Below are positions 2,610 to 14,032 of a stretch of DNA of 64,000 nucleotides, piece by piece. The notes under the pieces are model-generated. The model was not told the DNA's origin and searched no databases. It worked only from the letters and a program-made list of their open reading frames with translations. The DNA comes from Hyalangium ruber (lineage in GTDB: Bacteria > Myxococcota > Myxococcia > Myxococcales > Myxococcaceae). Location: positions 1 through 64,000 of the forward strand of contig NZ_JAXIVS010000004.1 of NCBI RefSeq assembly GCF_034259325.1. The letters are read 5' to 3'. Each line of letters opens with the position of its first letter. Positions within the stretch are counted from its first letter, which is position 1. Made by a program: the position numbers and the translations under genes.

Positions 2610-2724
2610 GTGTGGCTCCTGCGCTTGGAAGGCGCGCGGAGCTTCAACATAGCACCGCCCTACATACCCAACTCATCAGGCCTTACAGTGTCCACCCTCC
2701 GCATCGCTGCCCCCAGAGGACCGC

Positions 2725-4518
2725 ATGAAGCACATTCACGGCTACATCGAGCGCTGGGAGCACCGACTCGCCCAGCACGAGTTCTTCACCCGGATGAACT
2801 TCGGCAACACGCTGGAGCAGGTGCTGTCGTTCACGCCCTACACCGCGTTCGTCATCCTGCTGTTCCAGGACATCATCCGGATCAACGTGCGGCTCACCCG
2901 AGATCCGTATCTGAAGAAGATCATCGGCCGGCATGCGAGCGAGGACACGGGGCACGATCTCTGGTTCCTGGATGACTTGAAGCTCATCTTCCCGGAGCGG
3001 CAGTGGGACATCGGCTGGCTGTTCTCCCGGGAGAACCGGCCGATGCGGGACGCGGCGCTCGCGCTGTGCTCGGAGATCTACCGCATCCAGGATGACCGAC
3101 TGCGGCTGGTGTTCGTGGAGGCCCTGGAGGCCACCTCGCAGGTGTACTTCCCGATGATGGACCAGCACCTGAAGCAGTGTGGGCTCGGCCAGGGGCTCAA
3201 GTTCTTCGCCGGGCACCACATCTCCGTGGAGGAGAGTCACACCCTCTTCCAGCAGGAAGTGGAGCGGCAACTCAACGCCATCGAGGTGCCCGATGGGCTC
3301 CGCGAGGAAGCGCTGGGAATCGTGGACAGGGTGTTCGAGTCCTTCGTGCTGCTGGCGGATGGGCTGCAGGAGCACGCCGGTGCGGTCTCTCGGCGCCGGA
3401 ACTGGATCCCTCGCTCCGAGGAGTTCGCTGGCAAGACGTTCAAGGAGCACGGCCTGACGCGGCTGGAGCCCCTGGCGCGTGCCTCGGGGCTGGAGCCCTC
3501 GGCGGCGCTGCGAGACTTTGGCAACCTGTTCGCCCCGTGGGGAGAGCGCCCCATGCGCAAGGTGCCGCTGTGGCCCTCGACACTGAGCGAGGAGCACTCG
3601 CCGCTCGAGTTCTCCTGGTCCTCGCACGGTGGACAGCCCGAGTTGCGCTTGCGTGTGGAAGCCCTGGGGGACAACCCGAGCCCCGCCACCAACTGGGCGG
3701 TGGCACAACAACTGAGCGGGCGCCTGAGCTTCGAGTACCAGCGCTCCCTGGAGCGGCTGCGGCGCATCGAGGAGCTCTTCGTGCCACGTGAGCCCGGGGC
3801 GACGTTCGCGATGGGCCATGCGATGACCCTGAGGCCAGGAGCCCCGCCCGAGCTCTGGGTGTTCCTGAATCCTCAGGCCCAGGGCGCCGAGCAGGCACCG
3901 GCGCGGGTGGAAGAGGCGCTCGGTCGTCTCGGGCTCGCGCGCTCCTGGCGCTCGTTGCGCGAGGCGATGCTGCGCCGACCGAAGGATCGGCTCCTCTCCC
4001 TGGCGCTGGAGCTCTCCGAGGGTCCCGAGGCGCGCGTCGAGTTGCATGCGGAACATCTCGACGCCACCGCCGAGGACGTGGAGCCGGTGCTGGCGCTCGG
4101 GCAGGGGTATGCCTCGGGAGAGGCGCGCAGGCTGTTCCAGATGCTGGCGGGAGAAGCGGGCCCCATCTCCCGGGGCGCCGTCCGCACCTCGGTGATGCTC
4201 TCCACGGGCAGCGAGCCCCGCGCCGTCGGCAGTACGCTCCAGTTCCCCGTGCATGCCTATGCGGACGACGACCGGGTGGCACGGGAGCGAATCGCGGAGC
4301 TGCTCGATGCGCGAGAGCGCCAGCACTACCGGGAGGTCCTCTCGGAGGTCGCCCGGCGGCCGCTGGAGGCGGGGGTGGGGTTGCAGTCCGCCGTGTTCGC
4401 TCAGTGGCAGGGCACCCCATGCCGCATGGGTGTGTACCTGACGTCCGAGGCGTATGCGATCAGGACGCCGCGCAATGCCCCGGGCCAGGCGCCGCTGTCG
4501 TATGGTCACGGCTCTTGA
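2725..4518 (+). CDS. Heme-oxygenase-like oxidase/oxygenase fused to a DMATS-type aromatic prenyltransferase domain
   Basis: This 597-residue protein appears to be a two-domain enzyme. Residues about 1-215 are all-helical with metal-ligand-like motifs of the heme-oxygenase-like (TenA/HDO) fold: SEDTGH near 72-77, an acidic helix (VEALEAT) near 131, and EESHT near 169-173. Residues about 230-597 follow bacterial indole prenyltransferases of the DMATS/ABBA family in order: PLEFSWS (Glu295, matching the indole-binding Glu), RVEAL, EELFVP, the VFLNPQA strand, a TLQFPVHAY strand and a final VYLTSEAY strand. Several canonical Lys/Tyr diphosphate-shield positions are changed (WVF for KVY, VEL for VKV), so prenyl transfer is not assured. 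A Nudix gene starts 26 bp downstream. Domain assignment is from remembered family patterns; the natural substrate is unknown. Confidence 0.72.
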   Translation: MKHIHGYIERWEHRLAQHEFFTRMNFGNTLEQVLSFTPYTAFVILLFQDIIRINVRLTRDPYLKKIIGRHASEDTGHDLWFLDDLKLIFPERQWDIGWLFSRENRPMRDAALALCSEIYRIQDDRLRLVFVEALEATSQVYFPMMDQHLKQCGLGQGLKFFAGHHISVEESHTLFQQEVERQLNAIEVPDGLREEALGIVDRVFESFVLLADGLQEHAGAVSRRRNWIPRSEEFAGKTFKEHGLTRLEPLARASGLEPSAALRDFGNLFAPWGERPMRKVPLWPSTLSEEHSPLEFSWSSHGGQPELRLRVEALGDNPSPATNWAVAQQLSGRLSFEYQRSLERLRRIEELFVPREPGATFAMGHAMTLRPGAPPELWVFLNPQAQGAEQAPARVEEALGRLGLARSWRSLREAMLRRPKDRLLSLALELSEGPEARVELHAEHLDATAEDVEPVLALGQGYASGEARRLFQMLAGEAGPISRGAVRTSVMLSTGSEPRAVGSTLQFPVHAYADDDRVARERIAELLDARERQHYREVLSEVARRPLEAGVGLQSAVFAQWQGTPCRMGVYLTSEAYAIRTPRNAPGQAPLSYGHGS

Positions 4519-4544
4519 ACCGCTCTCTGGGAGAGAGGCTGACG

Positions 4545-4937
4545 GTGATTGACAAGCTCGCATGGATACGGGTCGCCAACGGGCGAATCCTGGGCGCTCG
4601 CTCCAAGGGAAAGGACACCTATTACCTCCCGGGAGGAAAGCGTGAGCCCGGCGAGACGGATATCGAAGCGCTCTCCCGAGAGGTCGAGGAGGAGCTGTCC
4701 GTTCGGATCAAACCCGAGACCGCCTCGCTCTTTGGAACCTTCGAGGCCCAGGCCCATGGGAAACCCGAAGGTGTGCGGGTGCGGATGACTTGTTATCTCG
4801 CGGAGTTCGATGGAGAGCTGCGTCCCGCTTCCGAGATCGAGGAATTAGTCTGGCTGACGTATCAGGACCGGGAACGTGTCTCTCTCGTCAGTCAGATCAT
4901 CTTCGACAAGCTCCATGAGATGAAGTGGCTCTCATAG
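4545..4937 (+). CDS. Nudix hydrolase
   Basis: The 130-residue product carries a full Nudix box, GGKREPGETDIEALSREVEEEL, here split as GGKREPGET (residues about 26-34) and REVEEEL (about 41-47), matching Gx5Ex7REUxEExGU. Nudix enzymes hydrolyse nucleoside diphosphates linked to another group; the substrate cannot be read from the sequence. I chose the GTG at 4545 because GGGAGAGAGG at 4530-4539 sits at a suitable distance and the start then falls after the upstream prenyltransferase-like gene; a TTG at 4515 is possible. The 26-bp spacing suggests co-transcription with the fusion gene, where it could act on a prenyl or nucleoside diphosphate, though that is speculation. Confidence 0.9.
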   Translation: MIDKLAWIRVANGRILGARSKGKDTYYLPGGKREPGETDIEALSREVEEELSVRIKPETASLFGTFEAQAHGKPEGVRVRMTCYLAEFDGELRPASEIEELVWLTYQDRERVSLVSQIIFDKLHEMKWLS

Positions 4938-6393: not shown

Positions 6394-8733
6394 ATGCCCG
6401 GAGCACTCGATCTCAACAGGTTTCCGACCCAGCCTCTCTTCACGATTTCGTGCGACGCGCTCCCCGCGGACACGCGGGTCCTGCGCCTGGGCGGCACGGA
6501 GGGCATCTCCCATCTCTACAGCTTCACCCTCCAGTTGCTCATGCACGAGGACGAGGGCCTGGTCTTCGAGATGGAGCAGGCCCTCAACGCCCCCGCCACC
6601 CTGACCATCCACGGCGGAGACGGGACGCCGCGCCGCACCCTTCATGGCGTGCTGGCCTCCATCGACTGGGTCCGCGAGACCGCCGACCACACCGTCTATG
6701 AAGTCGTGCTCGTACCCCGGCTGTGGAGGCTGGGGCTGAACCAGCACAGCAACGTCTACGTCCAGCAGGCCATCCCCACCATCATCACCAACCTGCTCGA
6801 GGACAACGGCTTCGTCGCGGAGGACTACGCGCTGCGGTTGAAGGAGCGCTACCCGAAGCTCGAGCACGTCTCCCAGTACCGGGAGAGCGACCTGGCCTTC
6901 ATCCAGCGGCGGATGGAGCGCGAGGGCATCTACTTCTACTTCGAGCAGCTCGAGGACCGCGAGAAGCTCATCATCACCGACCACAAGAGCTACGCCGCGT
7001 CGAGCGGCTCGGTCCGGTACTTCCCCCAGGCGGGCCGCAACCTCACCGGTGTCGAGGCCTTCGCCACCTTCACCTCCCGGTGCCGCACGCGCCCGAAGGA
7101 GGTCCGGCTGCGCGAGTACGACTACCTGCGGCCCACCATGGACTTGAAGAAGAGCCACCCCGTGTCCCCGCACGGCGTCGGCGAGGTGGTCAGCCACGAC
7201 GAGCACTACACCACCCCCGCGGACGGCAAGCGGCTGGCCCAGGCCCGCGCCGAGGAGCTCAAGGCCCGCGAGGCCATCTTCGAGGGCCGGGGCCGGGCCT
7301 TCGAGGCGCAGCCAGGCTACCTCTTCGAGGTCTGCGAGCATCCCCGCCCCTCCTTCAACGCCTCGTACCTCGCGGTCACCGTGGAGCATGAGGGCAGCCA
7401 GGGCATCGGCGACGTCGAGGAGCTGGACGACGAAGCGCCCACGCAGTTGAACCGGGACGCGGAGCCCACCTACTTCATGCGGGTGGAGGCCATTCCCAGC
7501 GGCGTCCAGTTCCGCCCCCCACAGCTGACTCCGGTCCCCCGCATCTTCGGGGTGGAGACTGGACGCGTGGACGGCGAGCAGGAGAGCCAGTACGCGCAGA
7601 TCGACGAGCACGGCCGCTACAGGCTCCAGCTCCACTTCGACGAGAACGATCCGCGCAACGGCAAGGCCTCCACCTGGGTCCGCATGCTCCAGCCCCACGG
7701 TGGCAGCCGCGAGGGCTTCCACTTCCCGCTGCGCAAGGGCACCGAGGTGCTCCTGGTGTTCCTCGGGGGAGATCCGGATCGCCCCGTCATCGCCGGCGTC
7801 GTGCCCAACCCCCATACCCCCAGCCCCGTCACCCAGAACAACGCCACCTTCAACGTCCTGCTCACCGGCGGCGGCAACCGGATGGAGCTGGAGGACAAGG
7901 CCGACGTGCAGCACGTGCGGCTGTCCACGCCCACCCAGGACACCCTGCTCCACATGGGCGCCCCGGACGAGAGCAGCCACAACATCCATCTGCGCTCCAA
8001 TGGCAGCGCGTTGATCGATCTGGGCGGTGACTACGACACCAAGGTGCAAGGAGCCAAGACCGAGTACGTCAAGAAGTCCGTCACCGAGACCTACGACAAC
8101 CTCCTGGACACCAAGGTGAAGGAGGACCGCTTCCTCACGGTCAGTGGCAACGACGACACGAAGGTCACCAAGGAGCAGAAGCTCAAGGTCACCGGCAACC
8201 GCACCGTCACGGCCGAGTCGAACCAGACGCACACCGTCACCGGCAAGGACACGCACACCATCACCGGGCAGCAGAAGATCACCGCCAACGGCGGACAGAA
8301 CATCACCGTGGGCTCCAGCGGTCGGACCGAGACCATCTCGGGCCCGCTCACCCAGACGACGGGCCCCCAGACGCTCACGGTGAACGGCGTGCTCACCCAG
8401 ACCATCACCGGCGCGGCCACCATCACCAGCCCCGTGAGCTACAACATCGTCGCGCCCAACGTGAACCAGGTGGCTCCCGCCAAGAACTTCAAGTCAGCGC
8501 CCTGGAGTGGCGAGGCGATCGGCTTCAAGTTCTCCATCCTGGGCGCCAAGGCCGAAGTCGTCGCGGGCATGGCCGTGGCCGCCACGAACGTGAAGATGGA
8601 CCTCACGTCCCTCAAGATGGACATCGCGACGATGAAGTATCAGAACAACCCGACGACCATCAAAACGTTCGGAGCCGCCATCCAGCAGGCCTACTGCAAC
8701 CTGCACGTCGTCGGCTTGTTCGTCGTGGCGTAA
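6394..8733 (+). CDS. vgrG: Type VI secretion tip protein VgrG (TssI)
   Basis: This 779-residue protein is the trimeric spike that caps the Hcp tube of a type VI secretion system. Residues about 1-330 form the gp27-like part (LFTISCDALPADTRVLRL, then YFYFEQLEDREKLIITDH). A gp5-like OB-fold follows (about 385-470; GRYRLQLHFDENDPRNG, WVRMLQP, FPLRKGTEVLLVFLGGDPD), then a beta-helix needle with Thr/Val-rich repeats (TVTGKDTHTITGQQKITAN). The C-terminal 100 residues are Ala/Met-rich with no catalytic motif that I recognise, so it is not an obvious evolved VgrG. GGGGGAGA lies 5-6 bases before the ATG. It heads an operon running to 14032 that supplies adaptor and PAAR-like tip proteins. No baseplate or sheath genes are in the window. 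Confidence 0.95.
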   Translation: MPGALDLNRFPTQPLFTISCDALPADTRVLRLGGTEGISHLYSFTLQLLMHEDEGLVFEMEQALNAPATLTIHGGDGTPRRTLHGVLASIDWVRETADHTVYEVVLVPRLWRLGLNQHSNVYVQQAIPTIITNLLEDNGFVAEDYALRLKERYPKLEHVSQYRESDLAFIQRRMEREGIYFYFEQLEDREKLIITDHKSYAASSGSVRYFPQAGRNLTGVEAFATFTSRCRTRPKEVRLREYDYLRPTMDLKKSHPVSPHGVGEVVSHDEHYTTPADGKRLAQARAEELKAREAIFEGRGRAFEAQPGYLFEVCEHPRPSFNASYLAVTVEHEGSQGIGDVEELDDEAPTQLNRDAEPTYFMRVEAIPSGVQFRPPQLTPVPRIFGVETGRVDGEQESQYAQIDEHGRYRLQLHFDENDPRNGKASTWVRMLQPHGGSREGFHFPLRKGTEVLLVFLGGDPDRPVIAGVVPNPHTPSPVTQNNATFNVLLTGGGNRMELEDKADVQHVRLSTPTQDTLLHMGAPDESSHNIHLRSNGSALIDLGGDYDTKVQGAKTEYVKKSVTETYDNLLDTKVKEDRFLTVSGNDDTKVTKEQKLKVTGNRTVTAESNQTHTVTGKDTHTITGQQKITANGGQNITVGSSGRTETISGPLTQTTGPQTLTVNGVLTQTITGAATITSPVSYNIVAPNVNQVAPAKNFKSAPWSGEAIGFKFSILGAKAEVVAGMAVAATNVKMDLTSLKMDIATMKYQNNPTTIKTFGAAIQQAYCNLHVVGLFVVA

Positions 8734-8745
8734 GGGGAGAAACGG

Positions 8746-9264
8746 ATGACGAACCAGGAGCCGGATGCCGCGGGCAAGGCCGTCGGGTACATTCTGGGCT
8801 TTCTGATCATCGGTGGCGCGATCGCGATGCTGATCGCGAGCTTCTACGTGTCCCCCGAGGCGCAGACAGACAGCGGTGGCTCGCTCCAGATGTTCCTTCG
8901 CTACTCTGGAGGGATCATCCTCGGATTGGGTGTCATGGGCCTGCCCATCGGGATCATTCTCCACCAGGAGAACCGGAAGAAGGCCGCCCGGCTCCGGGAG
9001 CTCAAGGCCTCGGCGGTTCCCGGGGTGCTGCGCATCGTCAGCTTCGAGCAGCTGTATGCCAACGAAGACTCCGTGGAGCTCTCGCTCGACGTCGAGATCA
9101 CCGTGCCCTCACGCCAGCCCTACCGGATGGCGCTGAAGCAGTGGATCCCCACCGCCTACGTCGGCCGGCTTCGCCCGGACGAGCGGCTGCCCGTTCGGGT
9201 TCCCGCCTCCGAGCCTGGGACGCTGTTCATCGATTGGGGAGGAAAAGCGGAGCCCGGCGTATGA
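8746..9264 (+). CDS. Small membrane protein in the vgrG cassette
   Basis: The 172-residue product has two hydrophobic segments, about residues 14-34 and 50-70, followed by a soluble domain of about 95 residues with beta-strand character (VPGVLRIVSFEQLY, VELSLDVEITVP, PYRMALKQWIP). I do not recognise a named family. Its position between vgrG and the DUF2169 adaptor, 12 bp after vgrG and overlapping the next gene by 4 bp, suggests a role with the cassette, for example an immunity protein or an effector acting in the membrane. Neither can be shown from the sequence. Confidence 0.85.
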   Translation: MTNQEPDAAGKAVGYILGFLIIGGAIAMLIASFYVSPEAQTDSGGSLQMFLRYSGGIILGLGVMGLPIGIILHQENRKKAARLRELKASAVPGVLRIVSFEQLYANEDSVELSLDVEITVPSRQPYRMALKQWIPTAYVGRLRPDERLPVRVPASEPGTLFIDWGGKAEPGV

Positions 9265-11897
9265 AGGTCATCAAACCGCAGAAGCTCGGGCTGCTGCCGC
9301 GCTCCTTCGAGTACGGGAAGGACACCTTCCTCGTGCTCACCATGGCCGCCTTCTTCCCGCTGGATCAGCCCGACGTGCTCCTGCCCGAAGTGGCCCTCTG
9401 GAAGTTCGCCGCCGAGGAGCTGGGTGGGCAGACGCCGCTGGACGAGGGCCTGCCCAAGCAGCGCGGCGAGGTGCTCGTCCACGCGCAGGCCTTTCCCCCG
9501 GGAGGCACCCCGCAGGTCGCCTGCCAGGTGCGGGTGCGCGTGGGCTCCATCGACAAGACGCTGCGCGTGGTGGGCAACCGTCACTGGGACCGGAGTGGAG
9601 TCCCCTCGCCTCCCGAGCCCTTCACCCAGATGCCGCTCACGTATGCCCAGGCTTTCGGCGGCCAGGGCTACGCGCCCAATCCCCTGGGCAAGGGCTTCGT
9701 CCAGGGGAAGCTCCCCCCCGGCGCGCTCCACCCCCTGCCCAATGTGGAGGCGCCCAACCAGCTCATCCGCTCGCCCAAGGACAAGCCCGCCCCCGCGGGT
9801 CTGCTGCCCTTGGACACGAGCTGGCCGCAGCGGGCCTCCAAGGCCGGCACGTATGACAGCCGCTGGTTGAAGACGCGCTTCCCCGGCTTCGCCGAGGACC
9901 TGGACGAGAGCTACTTCAACGCCGCTCCCGAGGACCAGTGGCTCTCCGGCTACTTCCAGGGTGGCGAGCGCTTCTTCCTCGAGCACCTCCACCCCTCCCA
10001 GCCCCGCATCGAGGGCACGCTGCCGCGGCTGACCGCCCGCGCCTTCGTCACCCTCAAGACGCCTCAGGGCGAGTCCCTGCAGGAGCTCTCCACCCGGCTG
10101 GACACCGTGTGGCTGTTTCCGCACGCCCAGCGCGGGGTGCTTCTCTTCCGCGCCCTCGCCAAGGTCGCCGAGGACGATGCCGCGGACGTGCTCCATTGCG
10201 TCACTGCCTTCGAGGCGCAAGGCGCTCCGCGTCCCGCCCAGCACTACAAGGACGTGCTCGCGCGGCGCCTGGACAAGAAGCAGGGGTATCTCTTCGCCTT
10301 GCAGGACTCCGAGCTGTTGCCCGAGCAGCCCGCCGGCGCTCCGGGCGACCTGGACACCGTGCCCCCGGAGTTCACCGTGGGAGGCCAGGTTCTGCGCGAT
10401 GCCATGCGGCGCGGAGCCCAGCGCGAACGGGACCGCGCCCGGGAGACGGTTCGGGCCGCGGGTGTGGATCCGGACACCGTCCTGCCCGCCACCCTCCCGC
10501 CCGAGGAGCGGGCACCCACCCTGGAGGAGTTGCCCGCCGTCGTGGGCCAGATCGAAGCGCAGATCGAGGAGCAGAAGGCCTCGGCCGAGCGCCAGCGGGT
10601 GGAGGCCGAGCAACACGCACGCCGCATCTGCGCCGAGCATGGCATCCACTACGAGAAGGTCATGCAGGACGCGAAGGAGAAGGCGGGTGGGCCTCCCCGC
10701 TTCTCGGCTCGCGAGGAGTTCGCGAAGCTCCAACAGCTCGCGGCCGACGTTCGCGGCCAGGGGCAGCCCATGCCCGAGCTCGAGGCCATGCTCGCCGCCC
10801 CCGCGTTCCTCCAGCGGATGGAGCACGGTGAGGCCCAGCTTCGCGAGATCTATCAGCGCTTCGCGCACCACATGGATCCCGCGGCCGCGATGGACGCCCC
10901 GTCCTCCGCGCAGGTGCGCGCCCGCGTGGAGGCGTGCCACCGGGCCGGACAGCCGCTCGCACGGGAGGACCTCACGGGCGCGGACCTCTCGGGCATGGAG
11001 CTGCCTGGGGTGAACTTCCAGGGCGCGCTGATGGAGCGGGTGAACCTGAAGGGCGCCAACCTGAGCGGGGCGAACCTCGAGGGGGCCGTGCTCGCTCGCG
11101 CCGAGCTGTCCGGCGCCCGCCTGACCGGGGCGAACCTGAAGGGCGCCAACCTCGGGCGGGCCCAGCTCCTCGGCACGCGGTTCGACGGTGGCGCGGAGCT
11201 CTCGGGCGCCAACCTCTCCGAGGCCGACCTGAGCGGGGCGAAGTTGCGCGGAGCCAAGCTCACCGGCGCGGACCTGTCCGGCGCGCGGATGAAGGGGGCG
11301 GACTTCCGGGAGGTGTCGGCGGCCGGCATCACCTTCATGCGGACCGACCTCTCCCAGGCGGCGTTCACGGGCGCCCAGCTCGCCGGGTGCATCTTCCTGG
11401 AGTGTACCGTCACCGGCGCGGACTTCAGCGGCGCCACGCTCACCTCCGGGATGTTCCTGACGGCCAAGGGAGATGGGGCCAACTTCCGCCAGGCCAAGCT
11501 CGGCAACCTGCGCCTGGTGCAGGGCTGCTCGTTCGCGAAGTCGGACTTCCAGGAGGCCGAGCTCAGCGAGGCCAACCTGCGCGGCACCCGGCTGGAGGAG
11601 AGCAACTTCTCCGGCGCCACGCTGGACCGCGCGGACCTCAGCGAGTGCGAGCTGCGCGGGGCGCGCTTCTACCGCTCCGTCGCTCGGGAGAGCCGCTGGG
11701 TCCGCGCAAACCTTCAAGCGGCCCACTGCGTGTCCATCAACCTCATGAACGCCATCCTCCAGAAGGCGGACATCTCCCAGGCGGACTTCACGGGCGCCAA
11801 CCTCTTCCGGGCGGACTTCGCCAAGGTGCGGGGCAAGGCCGCGAGCATGCGCCAGGCGCTCCTCACGGATGTGCGCATCACCCAGGAGCGGACATGA
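9261..11897 (+). CDS. DUF2169 T6SS adaptor fused to pentapeptide repeats
   Basis: The 878-residue protein begins with a DUF2169 domain (about 1-310), recognised by the WALTM-like N-terminal beta region, YAQAFGGQGYAPNPLGKGF, LPNVEAP and the WQSGYF-like segment DQWLSGYFQGGE. A charged coiled-coil linker (about 420-540) follows, and residues about 570-875 are tandem pentapeptide repeats of the A(D/N)LSG type, which fold as a square beta-solenoid. DUF2169 proteins in other bacteria act as chaperone/adaptors that load T6SS effectors onto a VgrG/PAAR tip, for example Atu3641 with Tde2 in Agrobacterium. The ATG at 9261 overlaps the preceding stop by 4 bp and the end overlaps the next ATG by 4 bp, which indicates translational coupling. 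The fused solenoid is the unusual part. Confidence 0.9.
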   Translation: MKVIKPQKLGLLPRSFEYGKDTFLVLTMAAFFPLDQPDVLLPEVALWKFAAEELGGQTPLDEGLPKQRGEVLVHAQAFPPGGTPQVACQVRVRVGSIDKTLRVVGNRHWDRSGVPSPPEPFTQMPLTYAQAFGGQGYAPNPLGKGFVQGKLPPGALHPLPNVEAPNQLIRSPKDKPAPAGLLPLDTSWPQRASKAGTYDSRWLKTRFPGFAEDLDESYFNAAPEDQWLSGYFQGGERFFLEHLHPSQPRIEGTLPRLTARAFVTLKTPQGESLQELSTRLDTVWLFPHAQRGVLLFRALAKVAEDDAADVLHCVTAFEAQGAPRPAQHYKDVLARRLDKKQGYLFALQDSELLPEQPAGAPGDLDTVPPEFTVGGQVLRDAMRRGAQRERDRARETVRAAGVDPDTVLPATLPPEERAPTLEELPAVVGQIEAQIEEQKASAERQRVEAEQHARRICAEHGIHYEKVMQDAKEKAGGPPRFSAREEFAKLQQLAADVRGQGQPMPELEAMLAAPAFLQRMEHGEAQLREIYQRFAHHMDPAAAMDAPSSAQVRARVEACHRAGQPLAREDLTGADLSGMELPGVNFQGALMERVNLKGANLSGANLEGAVLARAELSGARLTGANLKGANLGRAQLLGTRFDGGAELSGANLSEADLSGAKLRGAKLTGADLSGARMKGADFREVSAAGITFMRTDLSQAAFTGAQLAGCIFLECTVTGADFSGATLTSGMFLTAKGDGANFRQAKLGNLRLVQGCSFAKSDFQEAELSEANLRGTRLEESNFSGATLDRADLSECELRGARFYRSVARESRWVRANLQAAHCVSINLMNAILQKADISQADFTGANLFRADFAKVRGKAASMRQALLTDVRITQERT

Positions 11898-12943
11898 CCC
11901 GGGACGAGCTCATCGAGCAGGTGCGCCACGGTGAGCCCATCACCGGCGTGGATCTGTCGGGGATGGACCTCTCGGGCGCCGACCTCTCCGGAGGCGTGTT
12001 CCAGGAAGTCCGCTTCGCCTCGGCGAAGTTCGCGGGCGCCGCGCTCCGGGAGGCCATCTTCGCCGGCTGCTCCTTCGAAGGCGCGGACCTGCGCAAGGCC
12101 GAGCTGCCGCGCGCCGTGCTGGACCACTCCTCGCTCGACCGCGCCACGCTCGAGGGCGCGGACCTGACGGGGGCGAAGTGGCACGCGTGCAGCGCCTCGG
12201 GAGTCACGCTGCGCCAGGCGCGGCTCGCCCTCGGGGTGTTCTCGGAGGTGAACCTGACGGGCGCCGATCTCTCCGGCACCCTGCTCGACCGCACCGCGTT
12301 CTTCCAGGGGAGCTGGGGCCAGGTGAACCTCTCCGGGGCCACGCTCAAGCAGACAGTGCTCAATGAGGCGGACCTGCGCACCGTGAACCTCACGGGCGCG
12401 AGCTTTGAGCTGGCCCTGCTGCTGCAGAGCAACCTCTCGGGGATGAACCTTCAGGGGATGCGCTTCACCCTCACCCAGTTCAATGGGGCCAACCTGTCCG
12501 GGTGCGACCTGCGCGACAGCGTGCTCGTACAGTGCGGCTTCAAGGACGCGGACCTCAGCGGCGCCAAGATGGAGAAGGCGAACGCCGCCAACGCGCTGTT
12601 CATCCAGGCGCGGGCCGCGGGGGCCAACTTCCGTCAGGCCAACCTCTTCCAGGCGCTGCTGCTGGACGCGGAGCTCGGCAAGGCCGACTTCAGCGGCGCC
12701 AATCTGCAACAGGCCCAGTTCGCCCGCGCCAAGTGCGCGGGGGCCCGCTTCATTGGCGCGGAGCTGACCTACACGGACTTCAGCCACGCGGACCTCTCCG
12801 CCGCGGACTTCACCCGGGCCACCCTCGAGCGCACCCAGTTCCATGGTGCCCTGGAGCGAGGGACCGTGGGGCGCTCCCCGGTGGGGGCGCTGGGCACCGA
12901 CGAGAAGCGGGCCCAGGCGGAGAACTGGCGACCAACGCATTGA
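11894..12943 (+). CDS. Pentapeptide-repeat solenoid protein of the T6SS cassette
   Basis: Nearly all of this 349-residue protein, from about residue 15 to 325, is pentapeptide repeats (GVDLSGMDLSGADLSGG, then long runs of ADLxxAxLxx). It should fold as one right-handed quadrilateral beta-helix. There is no signal peptide or membrane segment. The N-terminal 14 residues (MTRDELIEQVRHGE) form a short helix typical of DUF2169-linked pentapeptide proteins. It overlaps the upstream adaptor by ATGA, and its repeats resemble the adaptor's C-terminal half, so it may be a duplicated, detached solenoid. It could be a structural extension of the tip, a cargo or a protective protein; the sequence does not decide. 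Confidence 0.9.
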   Translation: MTRDELIEQVRHGEPITGVDLSGMDLSGADLSGGVFQEVRFASAKFAGAALREAIFAGCSFEGADLRKAELPRAVLDHSSLDRATLEGADLTGAKWHACSASGVTLRQARLALGVFSEVNLTGADLSGTLLDRTAFFQGSWGQVNLSGATLKQTVLNEADLRTVNLTGASFELALLLQSNLSGMNLQGMRFTLTQFNGANLSGCDLRDSVLVQCGFKDADLSGAKMEKANAANALFIQARAAGANFRQANLFQALLLDAELGKADFSGANLQQAQFARAKCAGARFIGAELTYTDFSHADLSAADFTRATLERTQFHGALERGTVGRSPVGALGTDEKRAQAENWRPTH

Positions 12944-12961
12944 GCGCGCAACACCTGCACC

Positions 12962-12968
12962 AAGGAGG
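12962..12968 (+). promoter_or_regulatory. Shine-Dalgarno deciding the DUF3540 gene start
   Basis: AAGGAGG lies 4 bases before GTG 12973. It favours that GTG over the in-frame TTG at 12940, which has no comparable site and would overlap the upstream stop. Confidence 0.7.
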
Positions 12969-12972
12969 CTGT

Positions 12973-13623
12973 GTGGAGAAGCTGGCGGGAAGAATCGGGT
13001 CCACGGTGATTCAGCAGGATGTCGGCTCGGTGTTGTCCACCGAGGGCGCCTCGCTGAGCGTCGCCGTCGGCGGGACGCCCCACCCTGCGAAGCGCGCGCC
13101 GAGCTGCCTGCTCGCGCCCGAGCCGGGAGACCTCGTCCTCGTCACGTTCGTTCCGGGCCGGGGCTGCTACGTGCTCGCCGTGCTCGAGCGGGAAGAGGGC
13201 GCTCCGGGCCGGCTCGTCCATCAGGGCAACCTCGGGCTGCACCTCCCAGCCGGGCGCCTGACGGTGACGGCCTCCGAGGGAATGAGCGTCGTCTCCGGTC
13301 AGGACGTCTCCTGTGTCACGAGCTCTCTGCGGGCCCATGCCGTGGAGGCGAACCTCTCCATCGAGAAGGCCCACTTCCTCGGCACCTTCGCCAGCGTGCA
13401 GGTGGAGACGCTGAAGGTGATTGGCCGCTTCTTCGACTCGGTGCTGGAGCGCTTCTCGCAGCGCGTGCGGCGCTCGTACCGGCAGGTGGAGGAGGTGGAC
13501 TCCGTGCGCGCCGAGCAGCTCGACTACATGGCTTCCAAGAACGTCAGCGTGCGCGGCCGCAACGCGCTCGTCACCGCCGAACAGCTCGTGAAGCTGGACG
13601 GCGATCAGGTCCACCTGGGCTGA
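12973..13623 (+). CDS. DUF3540 family T6SS accessory protein
   Basis: This 216-residue protein matches the DUF3540 pattern found next to vgrG, DUF2169 and DUF4150 genes: an N-terminal beta-barrel-like part (AKRAPSCLLAPEPGDLVLV, then YVLAVLERE), followed by a beta-helix stretch (LHLPAGRLTVTASEGMSVV, VEANLSIEKAHFLG) and a helical segment near the end (FSQRVRRSYRQVEEVD). Such proteins are thought to form a VgrG-like OB-fold plus needle piece of the effector-loaded tip, but no reaction is known. It follows the pentapeptide gene by 29 bp and precedes the PAAR-like gene by 16 bp. Confidence 0.87.
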   Translation: MEKLAGRIGSTVIQQDVGSVLSTEGASLSVAVGGTPHPAKRAPSCLLAPEPGDLVLVTFVPGRGCYVLAVLEREEGAPGRLVHQGNLGLHLPAGRLTVTASEGMSVVSGQDVSCVTSSLRAHAVEANLSIEKAHFLGTFASVQVETLKVIGRFFDSVLERFSQRVRRSYRQVEEVDSVRAEQLDYMASKNVSVRGRNALVTAEQLVKLDGDQVHLG

Positions 13624-13639
13624 GGCCCGAGGAGCTCGC

Positions 13640-14032
13640 ATGTTCGCCAATACGCAGATGGGTGGAGTCGACATGGGCTTTCCGGACGTCTGCCTCACGC
13701 CGATGCCCGCGCCCACTCCCGTGCCCTACCCCAACATCGCCGCGGGTCCGATGGGCGTCCCCGCAGCCTACAAGGTCATGTTCCAGTGTACCCCCGCGCA
13801 CAACCTGGGAACGGTGGTCCCCCTCACCAACGGGGACAACGCGGGTGTCGCGATGGGCATGGCCTCGGGCACCGTCATGGGGCCTTCCCGCCACCTGACG
13901 GGCGCCTTCAGCGTGCTCGTCGGGGGCATGCCCGCCACGCGCGTGGGCAGCGTCTCCCTCCAGAACTCCACCAACTGTCCGGGCGCGCGGCTGGTGCCCA
14001 GTCAGGTCAAGGTGTTGCTGCTCGCGCCCTGA
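13640..14032 (+). CDS. DUF4150/PAAR-like spike-tip protein
   Basis: The 130-residue product fits the DUF4150 (PAAR-like) family: MFANTQMGGVDMGFPDVCLTP, an NIA segment with PTPVPYPN, then GDNAG, ASGTVMGPSR, a strand-turn pattern ending in GMPATRVG, and SVSLQNSTNCPG. PAAR and PAAR-like proteins form the sharp metal-stabilised cone on top of VgrG and carry or recruit effectors. This one is a single domain with no toxin extension, so cargo must be supplied by other genes, perhaps through the DUF2169 adaptor upstream. It closes the operon and is convergent with the histidine kinase gene 6 bp away. Confidence 0.9.
   Translation: MFANTQMGGVDMGFPDVCLTPMPAPTPVPYPNIAAGPMGVPAAYKVMFQCTPAHNLGTVVPLTNGDNAGVAMGMASGTVMGPSRHLTGAFSVLVGGMPATRVGSVSLQNSTNCPGARLVPSQVKVLLLAP

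Follow-up and report, generated by a model that had tools for sequence, protein, structure and literature searches.

What can a single protein do that joins a heme-oxygenase-like diiron oxidase (HDO) to a DMATS-type prenyltransferase barrel? Amino acids undergo unusual chemistry in single HDO enzymes, indoles are decorated by DMATS enzymes, and a gene fusion of the two places both on one pathway. Such a gene lies in the stretch of 64,000 nucleotides from the soil myxobacterium Hyalangium ruber that was analyzed here (the window; Table 1). An earlier note on this DNA had proposed that the protein might oxidize and prenylate the same substrate.

Table 1. Coordinates of the fusion gene, its two domains and the adjoining gene in the window
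Feature	Positions	Strand	Description
HDO–DMATS fusion gene, 597 aa	2725..4518	+	AetD-type HDO (aa 1–224) and DMATS-type ABBA barrel (aa 232–585); homology and predicted structure
N-terminal seven-helix heme-oxygenase-like diiron oxidase domain	2725..3399	+	Ligands D74, H77, E135, H165, E169, H172; F47; AetD match
C-terminal DMATS-type barrel	3400..4515	+	E295, R308, R437, Y571 kept; K378W, Y380F, K439E, Y441H changed; 6ZRY match
NUDIX hydrolase gene	4545..4937	+	PF00293, E 2.8e-13; GTG start

One gene and two predicted folds

The frame runs through 597 codons without interruption from an ATG that lies a few bases 3' of a ribosome-binding-like stretch (AGAGGA), and its third-position GC stays at 0.83–0.92 over the full length of both halves, which are thus read as one gene. 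An open reading frame on the opposite strand (2683–4563) lacks this third-position pattern and was set aside as a shadow frame. The NUDIX hydrolase gene begins about 27 bp past the stop codon of the fusion, has GGGAGAGAGG upstream of its start codon, and is probably co-transcribed with the fusion gene. The other neighbors in the window are a VgrG/DUF2169/PAAR group and a kinase; no obvious biosynthetic cluster was found among the genes neighboring the fusion, and they give little help on the pathway. Directly downstream, positions 6394–14032 hold VgrG, DUF2169 plus pentapeptide-repeat, and PAAR-like genes, a group resembling type VI secretion cargo.

Both halves have clear relatives of known structure. 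In a search of the Protein Data Bank (PDB), residues 235–584 match the 6-DMATS entry 6ZRY (E 3e-46) and residues 31–210 match AetD (E 2.5e-8). For the C-terminal half, phmmer finds 6ZRY with an E of 1.3e-46 (31–32% identity), and for the N-terminal half AetD is found in the PDB with an E of 5.7e-9 (about 22% identity). The Pfam model Trp_DMAT scores above its cut-off (28.5 against 25 bits), TIGR03429 matches below its full-family cut-off (E 7.5e-19), and the Pfam HDO model taken alone remains sub-threshold on the fusion protein (19.6 against 28.9 bits). No viral relatives were found.

The AlphaFold2 model, for which only window and locus sequences served as input, has a mean pLDDT of 89.1, with values above 90 in most blocks of the barrel. 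Foldseek places this model on 6ZRY with a TM score of 0.91 (normalized by target). With VIA-align, residues 235–585 superpose on 6ZRY with a Z of 44.4, and residues 1–224 on AetD (8JI4) with a Z of 22.9 and an rmsd of 2.6 over 218 residues. The C-terminal half is thus predicted as a ten-stranded ABBA barrel with DMATS sequence kinship and the N-terminal half as the seven-helix heme-oxygenase-like fold. These results confirm that the HDO–DMATS fusion is real and that both folds are present as predicted models. The earlier note had read much of this from the letters: the single frame across both domains, the kinship of the C-terminal half to bacterial indole prenyltransferases and the N-terminal metal domain all hold, the motifs it quoted (SEDTGH, the EESHT region, PLEFSWS with E295, WVF and VEL) are in place, and the AlphaFold and Foldseek check it had set beforehand returned both folds.

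Metal site and donor site

In AetD the iron ligands are D76, H79, E140, H172, E176, and H179, and F48 occupies the place of the seventh, carboxylate ligand of other HDOs, leaving Fe1 open for the amino-acid substrate (PMC11611611). In the sequence alignment, the residues of the fusion protein listed in Table 1 fall on all six of these ligands and on F48. They follow the pattern D/E-xx-H on core helix 1, E on core helix 2, and HxxxExxH on core helix 3, with the first pair in SEDTGH (residues 72–77) and the last three in HHISVEESH (164–172). The six ligands thus make up a full 3H/3C set, and with F47 the Fe1 site is open, as in the substrate-triggered type that binds amino acids. The carboxylate on auxiliary helix 2 that marks the 3H/4C N-oxygenases (SznF-type) is absent, F47 standing there instead. 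Written out with the F47 position first, the site reads FDHEHEH, as it does in all intact HDOs (with E for D in some).

By analogy, the N-terminal domain would carry iron and oxidize tryptophan. Its nearest HDO relatives stand alone in Myxococcaceae and have no assigned function, so that a substrate of the tryptophan type is extrapolated from AetD, at 22% identity. HDO enzymes convert tryptophans to nitriles (AetD) or skatoles (SktA), and the primary ligand set of the skatole-forming SktA is predicted to be identical to that of AetD (PMC13108848). AetD (PDB 8TWW, 8JI2–8JI7) shares with the window protein the seven-helix fold, the six 3H/3C ligands, and the Phe in place of the seventh, but it is a single-domain protein, and its F44 and Y167 are replaced in the alignment by V43 and F161. 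SznF is likewise a multi-domain natural-product enzyme with an HDO domain (PMC13108848), but its partner is a cupin and its HDO a 3H/4C N-oxygenase, whereas the window protein pairs its HDO with a prenyltransferase barrel and has a Phe at the seventh ligand position.

The other half tells of loss. Its E295, at the place of the catalytic-type glutamate through which DMATS enzymes contact the indole nitrogen, sits in PLEFSWS and is invariant in all 39 relatives of our conservation alignment (proteins from Myxococcota, Cyanobacteriota, and Actinomycetota). The donor-site residues R308, R437, R567, and Y571 are retained. At the four changed positions, namely K378W and Y380F (in WVF, 378–380), K439E (in VEL, 438–440), and Y441H, the usual residue occurs in 37, 37, 39, and 39 of the 39 relatives, respectively. 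These four are the only non-conservative changes among the 22 columns that are identical in at least 36 of the 39; 16 of the other 18 are unchanged, and two show a D-to-E exchange. As a string, the donor site reads ERKYRKYRY in the tabulated relatives (with one R-to-G exchange) and ERWFREHRY in the window protein.

In TleC, Lys187 (of the K-x-[YF] pair) and Tyr252 (of R-x-K-x-Y) bind or shield the diphosphate (PMC4786772); we matched these residues by motif. Position 189 of TleC is a Phe (PMC4786772), so Y380F would not by itself be disabling. As the earlier note had pointed out, several of the Lys and Tyr residues shielding the diphosphate are replaced in the window protein, and judging from these columns its barrel likely no longer binds prenyl diphosphate. 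We thus treat it as a DMATS-fold homologue and do not class it as an active DMATS. The remaining Arg and Tyr residues make residual or altered donor use possible. No orthologue of the exact protein was found among the Myxococcota genomes or in a scan of a genome collection, which covers one species of the genus, and the barrel could also be drifting.

The bacterial DMATS tryptophan prenyltransferases 6-DMATS (6ZRX/6ZRY), IptA (7W8V), and SCO7467 (6ZRZ), which come closest to this half, have the same ten-stranded ABBA barrel and catalytic-type Glu, as well as two donor Arg and a C-terminal Tyr. Unlike the window barrel, which is fused to an oxidase and has lost four donor-site residues, they stand alone with an intact donor site.

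Fusions across the Myxococcaceae and their setting

The homologue search named by the earlier note had a divided outcome: it yielded no orthologue, as stated above, and it revealed that two-domain proteins of this kind recur in the Myxococcaceae. DMATS matches occur in 12 of the 195 Myxococcota genomes, and most of the strong ones lie in frames of more than 600 codons. We distinguish five architectures: (a) the window protein, an HDO with complete ligands followed by a DMATS domain; (b) six proteins in which DMATS again follows an HDO fold at the N-terminus, here with metal ligands lost, two of them in the window's own genome (contigs C1 and C12); (c) two fusions in the opposite order, DMATS–HDO, in which metal ligands and donor site are both complete (G007 and G027, which belong to the Archangium violaceum genus); (d) the DMATS–HDO order as two genes in G103 and in A. 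violaceum itself (G105), the latter pair overlapping by 4 bp; and (e) four DMATS proteins that carry, at the C-terminus, a domain from another HDO family. For one protein of architecture (e), at L042, that domain matches Pfam Haem_oxygenas_2 (E 1.3e-11); the other three are assigned from their sequences, in which the same ligand pattern can be read. The two enzymes are thus repeatedly joined or translationally coupled in the Myxococcaceae, and the window protein is not one odd case. The observation made in the earlier note is accordingly of larger significance than stated there, since the two domains have been brought together repeatedly.

A plasmid of the cyanobacterium Calothrix (found in the plasmid set) carries genes for a DMATS, an HDO, a flavin monooxygenase (FMO), and a short-chain dehydrogenase in a row, of which the first three form an operon. 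In the actinomycete sample, DMATS occurs in 17 of 395 genomes, mostly in short stop-to-stop frames of 367–466 codons. One HDO-like gene with an HxxxDxxH motif (L111:4246–4983) overlaps the end of an upstream DMATS gene and may form a further coupled pair; no HDO match was found near the other sampled actinomycete copies. Several candidate fusions were rejected: a long actinomycete frame (839 aa) has an N-terminal extension with no HDO match, another long actinomycete frame with a weak match gives no DMATS hit with a purpose-built profile, and the N-terminal parts of the frames at L057 and L058 look like read-in from an over-long start and were not counted. The genome-collection scan, run with a 9-row DMATS alignment and with partial coverage of GTDB, found seven loci, of which five are myxobacterial and two come from actinomycetes. 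Genes for AetD-like HDOs, labeled hypothetical in the annotation, also occur in 266 Escherichia plasmid records and in Salmonella and Piscirickettsia records (PLSDB; e.g., NZ_CP038182.1:105240–105878).

Both enzyme families are already known, and the fusion family is a variation on them. The earlier note knew of no described enzyme with this fusion, and we likewise found no description in the open-access literature, the scope of our search. A 2026 review of HDOs mentions neither prenyl groups nor a fusion (PMC13108848).

The HDO domains of the fusions do not share one history. In the HDO tree, the window domain clusters with standalone Myxococcaceae HDOs (support 100/99), a subfamily spread across many Myxococcaceae genomes with, as a rule, one copy each, and apart from the sister fusions. 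The six ligand-less domains fall in an AetD-like group with the HDO partners of the DMATS–HDO order (100/97). Since the window HDO comes from another subfamily, its architecture represents a separate fusion or a domain replacement, and a single origin of all fusions was rejected for this protein on the same grounds. In the DMATS tree, the window protein has no firm placement, and its DMATS-half branch is long (1.11).

Set side by side, the fusions display reciprocal decay of their halves, as read from their catalytic columns: in the window protein the HDO site is complete and four donor-site residues are gone, and the six sister fusions have a full donor site and have lost HDO ligands (their ligand columns read, e.g., SEHERDP or FDHHRKP). 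The ligand-less domain in the predicted model of the C1 paralogue still matches AetD with a Z of 22.7.

The gene surroundings of the relatives are more telling than those of the window. Two sister clusters (L043 and L046) contain a P450 and a tryptophanase, the latter flanking both sister fusions, and a third (L054) contains a styrene-monooxygenase-type flavoprotein and a standalone intact HDO. Actinomycete DMATS clusters with a tryptophanase or an FMO lead to prenylated indole aldehyde and 5-dimethylallylindole-3-acetonitrile, the latter being the product of SCO7467/SCO7468 (PMC3617294). There, as in the IptA/tryptophanase cluster, a DMATS is paired with an enzyme altering the tryptophan side chain, but the partner is an FMO or a tryptophanase from a separate gene and not a fused diiron oxidase. 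Taken together with HDO chemistry, these clusters and products suggest, by analogy, that the class of product the family most likely makes is a prenylated, side-chain-oxidized indole.

Two further gene families attend these loci. A protein family of about 180–200 aa with no Pfam or NCBIfam match is found next to the standalone HDO of the Myxococcaceae at all 11 loci (e.g., L061:7393–7923), and a homologue (hhalign E 2.8e-35) occurs in four DMATS clusters (L054:9641–10234, L046:10839–11441, L043:5574–6176, and L049:12721–13314); the C-terminus of the family shows a weak resemblance to H-NOX sensors (E 0.003). A small gene for a PilZ domain (c-di-GMP-binding type) lies near all six ligand-less fusions (L043, L046, L052, L054, L055, and L056) and near the solo DMATS of L049.

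What the window protein may do

We consider it roughly an even call that the window protein is a live AetD-type oxidase carried by a donor-blind, indole-binding DMATS barrel, working beside active prenyltransferases. The oxidase would be catalytically competent: the amine and carboxylate of a tryptophan-type amino acid would bind to Fe1, and the side chain would be rearranged with O2 to a nitrile, a skatole, or a related outcome. The barrel would have kept the acceptor side of its pocket (E295) and would no longer hold dimethylallyl diphosphate, so that it would not prenylate; it may instead serve the oxidase as a module for binding indole or prenyl-indole, for docking, or for dimerization. 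Prenylation would fall to active DMATS proteins, for example the two paralogues of the same genome. That the protein holds iron, which substrate it takes and what it makes of it, that it transfers no prenyl group, and that its barrel serves for binding are what we infer.

A fully bifunctional enzyme, whose barrel would transfer a group from a different donor (longer, or not a diphosphate) before the HDO oxidizes the same molecule, seems rather unlikely to us. E295 and the four retained donor-site residues are intact, the barrel is predicted with high confidence, and the Archangium-type fusions carry both complete sites on one polypeptide; however, K439E and Y441H alter residues that are invariant among the relatives, and the K-to-E exchange puts a negative charge in the diphosphate's place. 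The same losses weaken the earlier proposal of oxidation and prenylation of one substrate, which we do not favor for the window protein and which, going by the residues retained, would better fit the DMATS–HDO fusion of the Archangium genus and the Calothrix operon.

It is less probable still that only the oxidase matters and that the DMATS half is a relic decaying after fusion. The long branch and the lost donor residues agree with this, and since much of the Myxococcaceae has kept a standalone HDO from the window domain's subfamily, the domain works with no partner. On the other hand, the frame is intact with its third-position GC high throughout, the barrel is well formed in the predicted model, and non-conservative losses are limited to the donor site instead of being scattered over the conserved columns.

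We are similarly doubtful of a division of labor, in which the window protein would pair through its HDO fold with the paralogous fusions to form one heteromer that prenylates and oxidizes tryptophan: three fusion proteins of one genome do show reciprocal decay, the ligand-less domain remains AetD-like in its predicted model, and AetD appears to be dimeric (PMC11611611), but the three genes are unlinked (C4, C12, and C1), ligand-less fusions in other genomes have no window-type partner, and one paralogue adjoins its own intact standalone HDO. Extended to the myxobacterial family as a whole, the idea would be that one half of some copies is a non-catalytic scaffold and that live-oxidase, donor-blind copies assemble with metal-free copies bearing a live prenyltransferase into a shared tryptophan prenylation–oxidation complex; to this, too, we assign a low probability.

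The reciprocal loss of catalytic residues makes these proteins a ready case for the study of pseudoenzyme halves and of substrate hand-over. For prenylating tryptophan and oxidizing its side chain in one pot, the intact DMATS–HDO fusions are direct candidates. That the fusion arose repeatedly, with either domain first and with HDOs of two families, is a strong functional linkage for a natural-product route that we did not find described, and it points to an unexplored route to prenylated, oxidized indoles.
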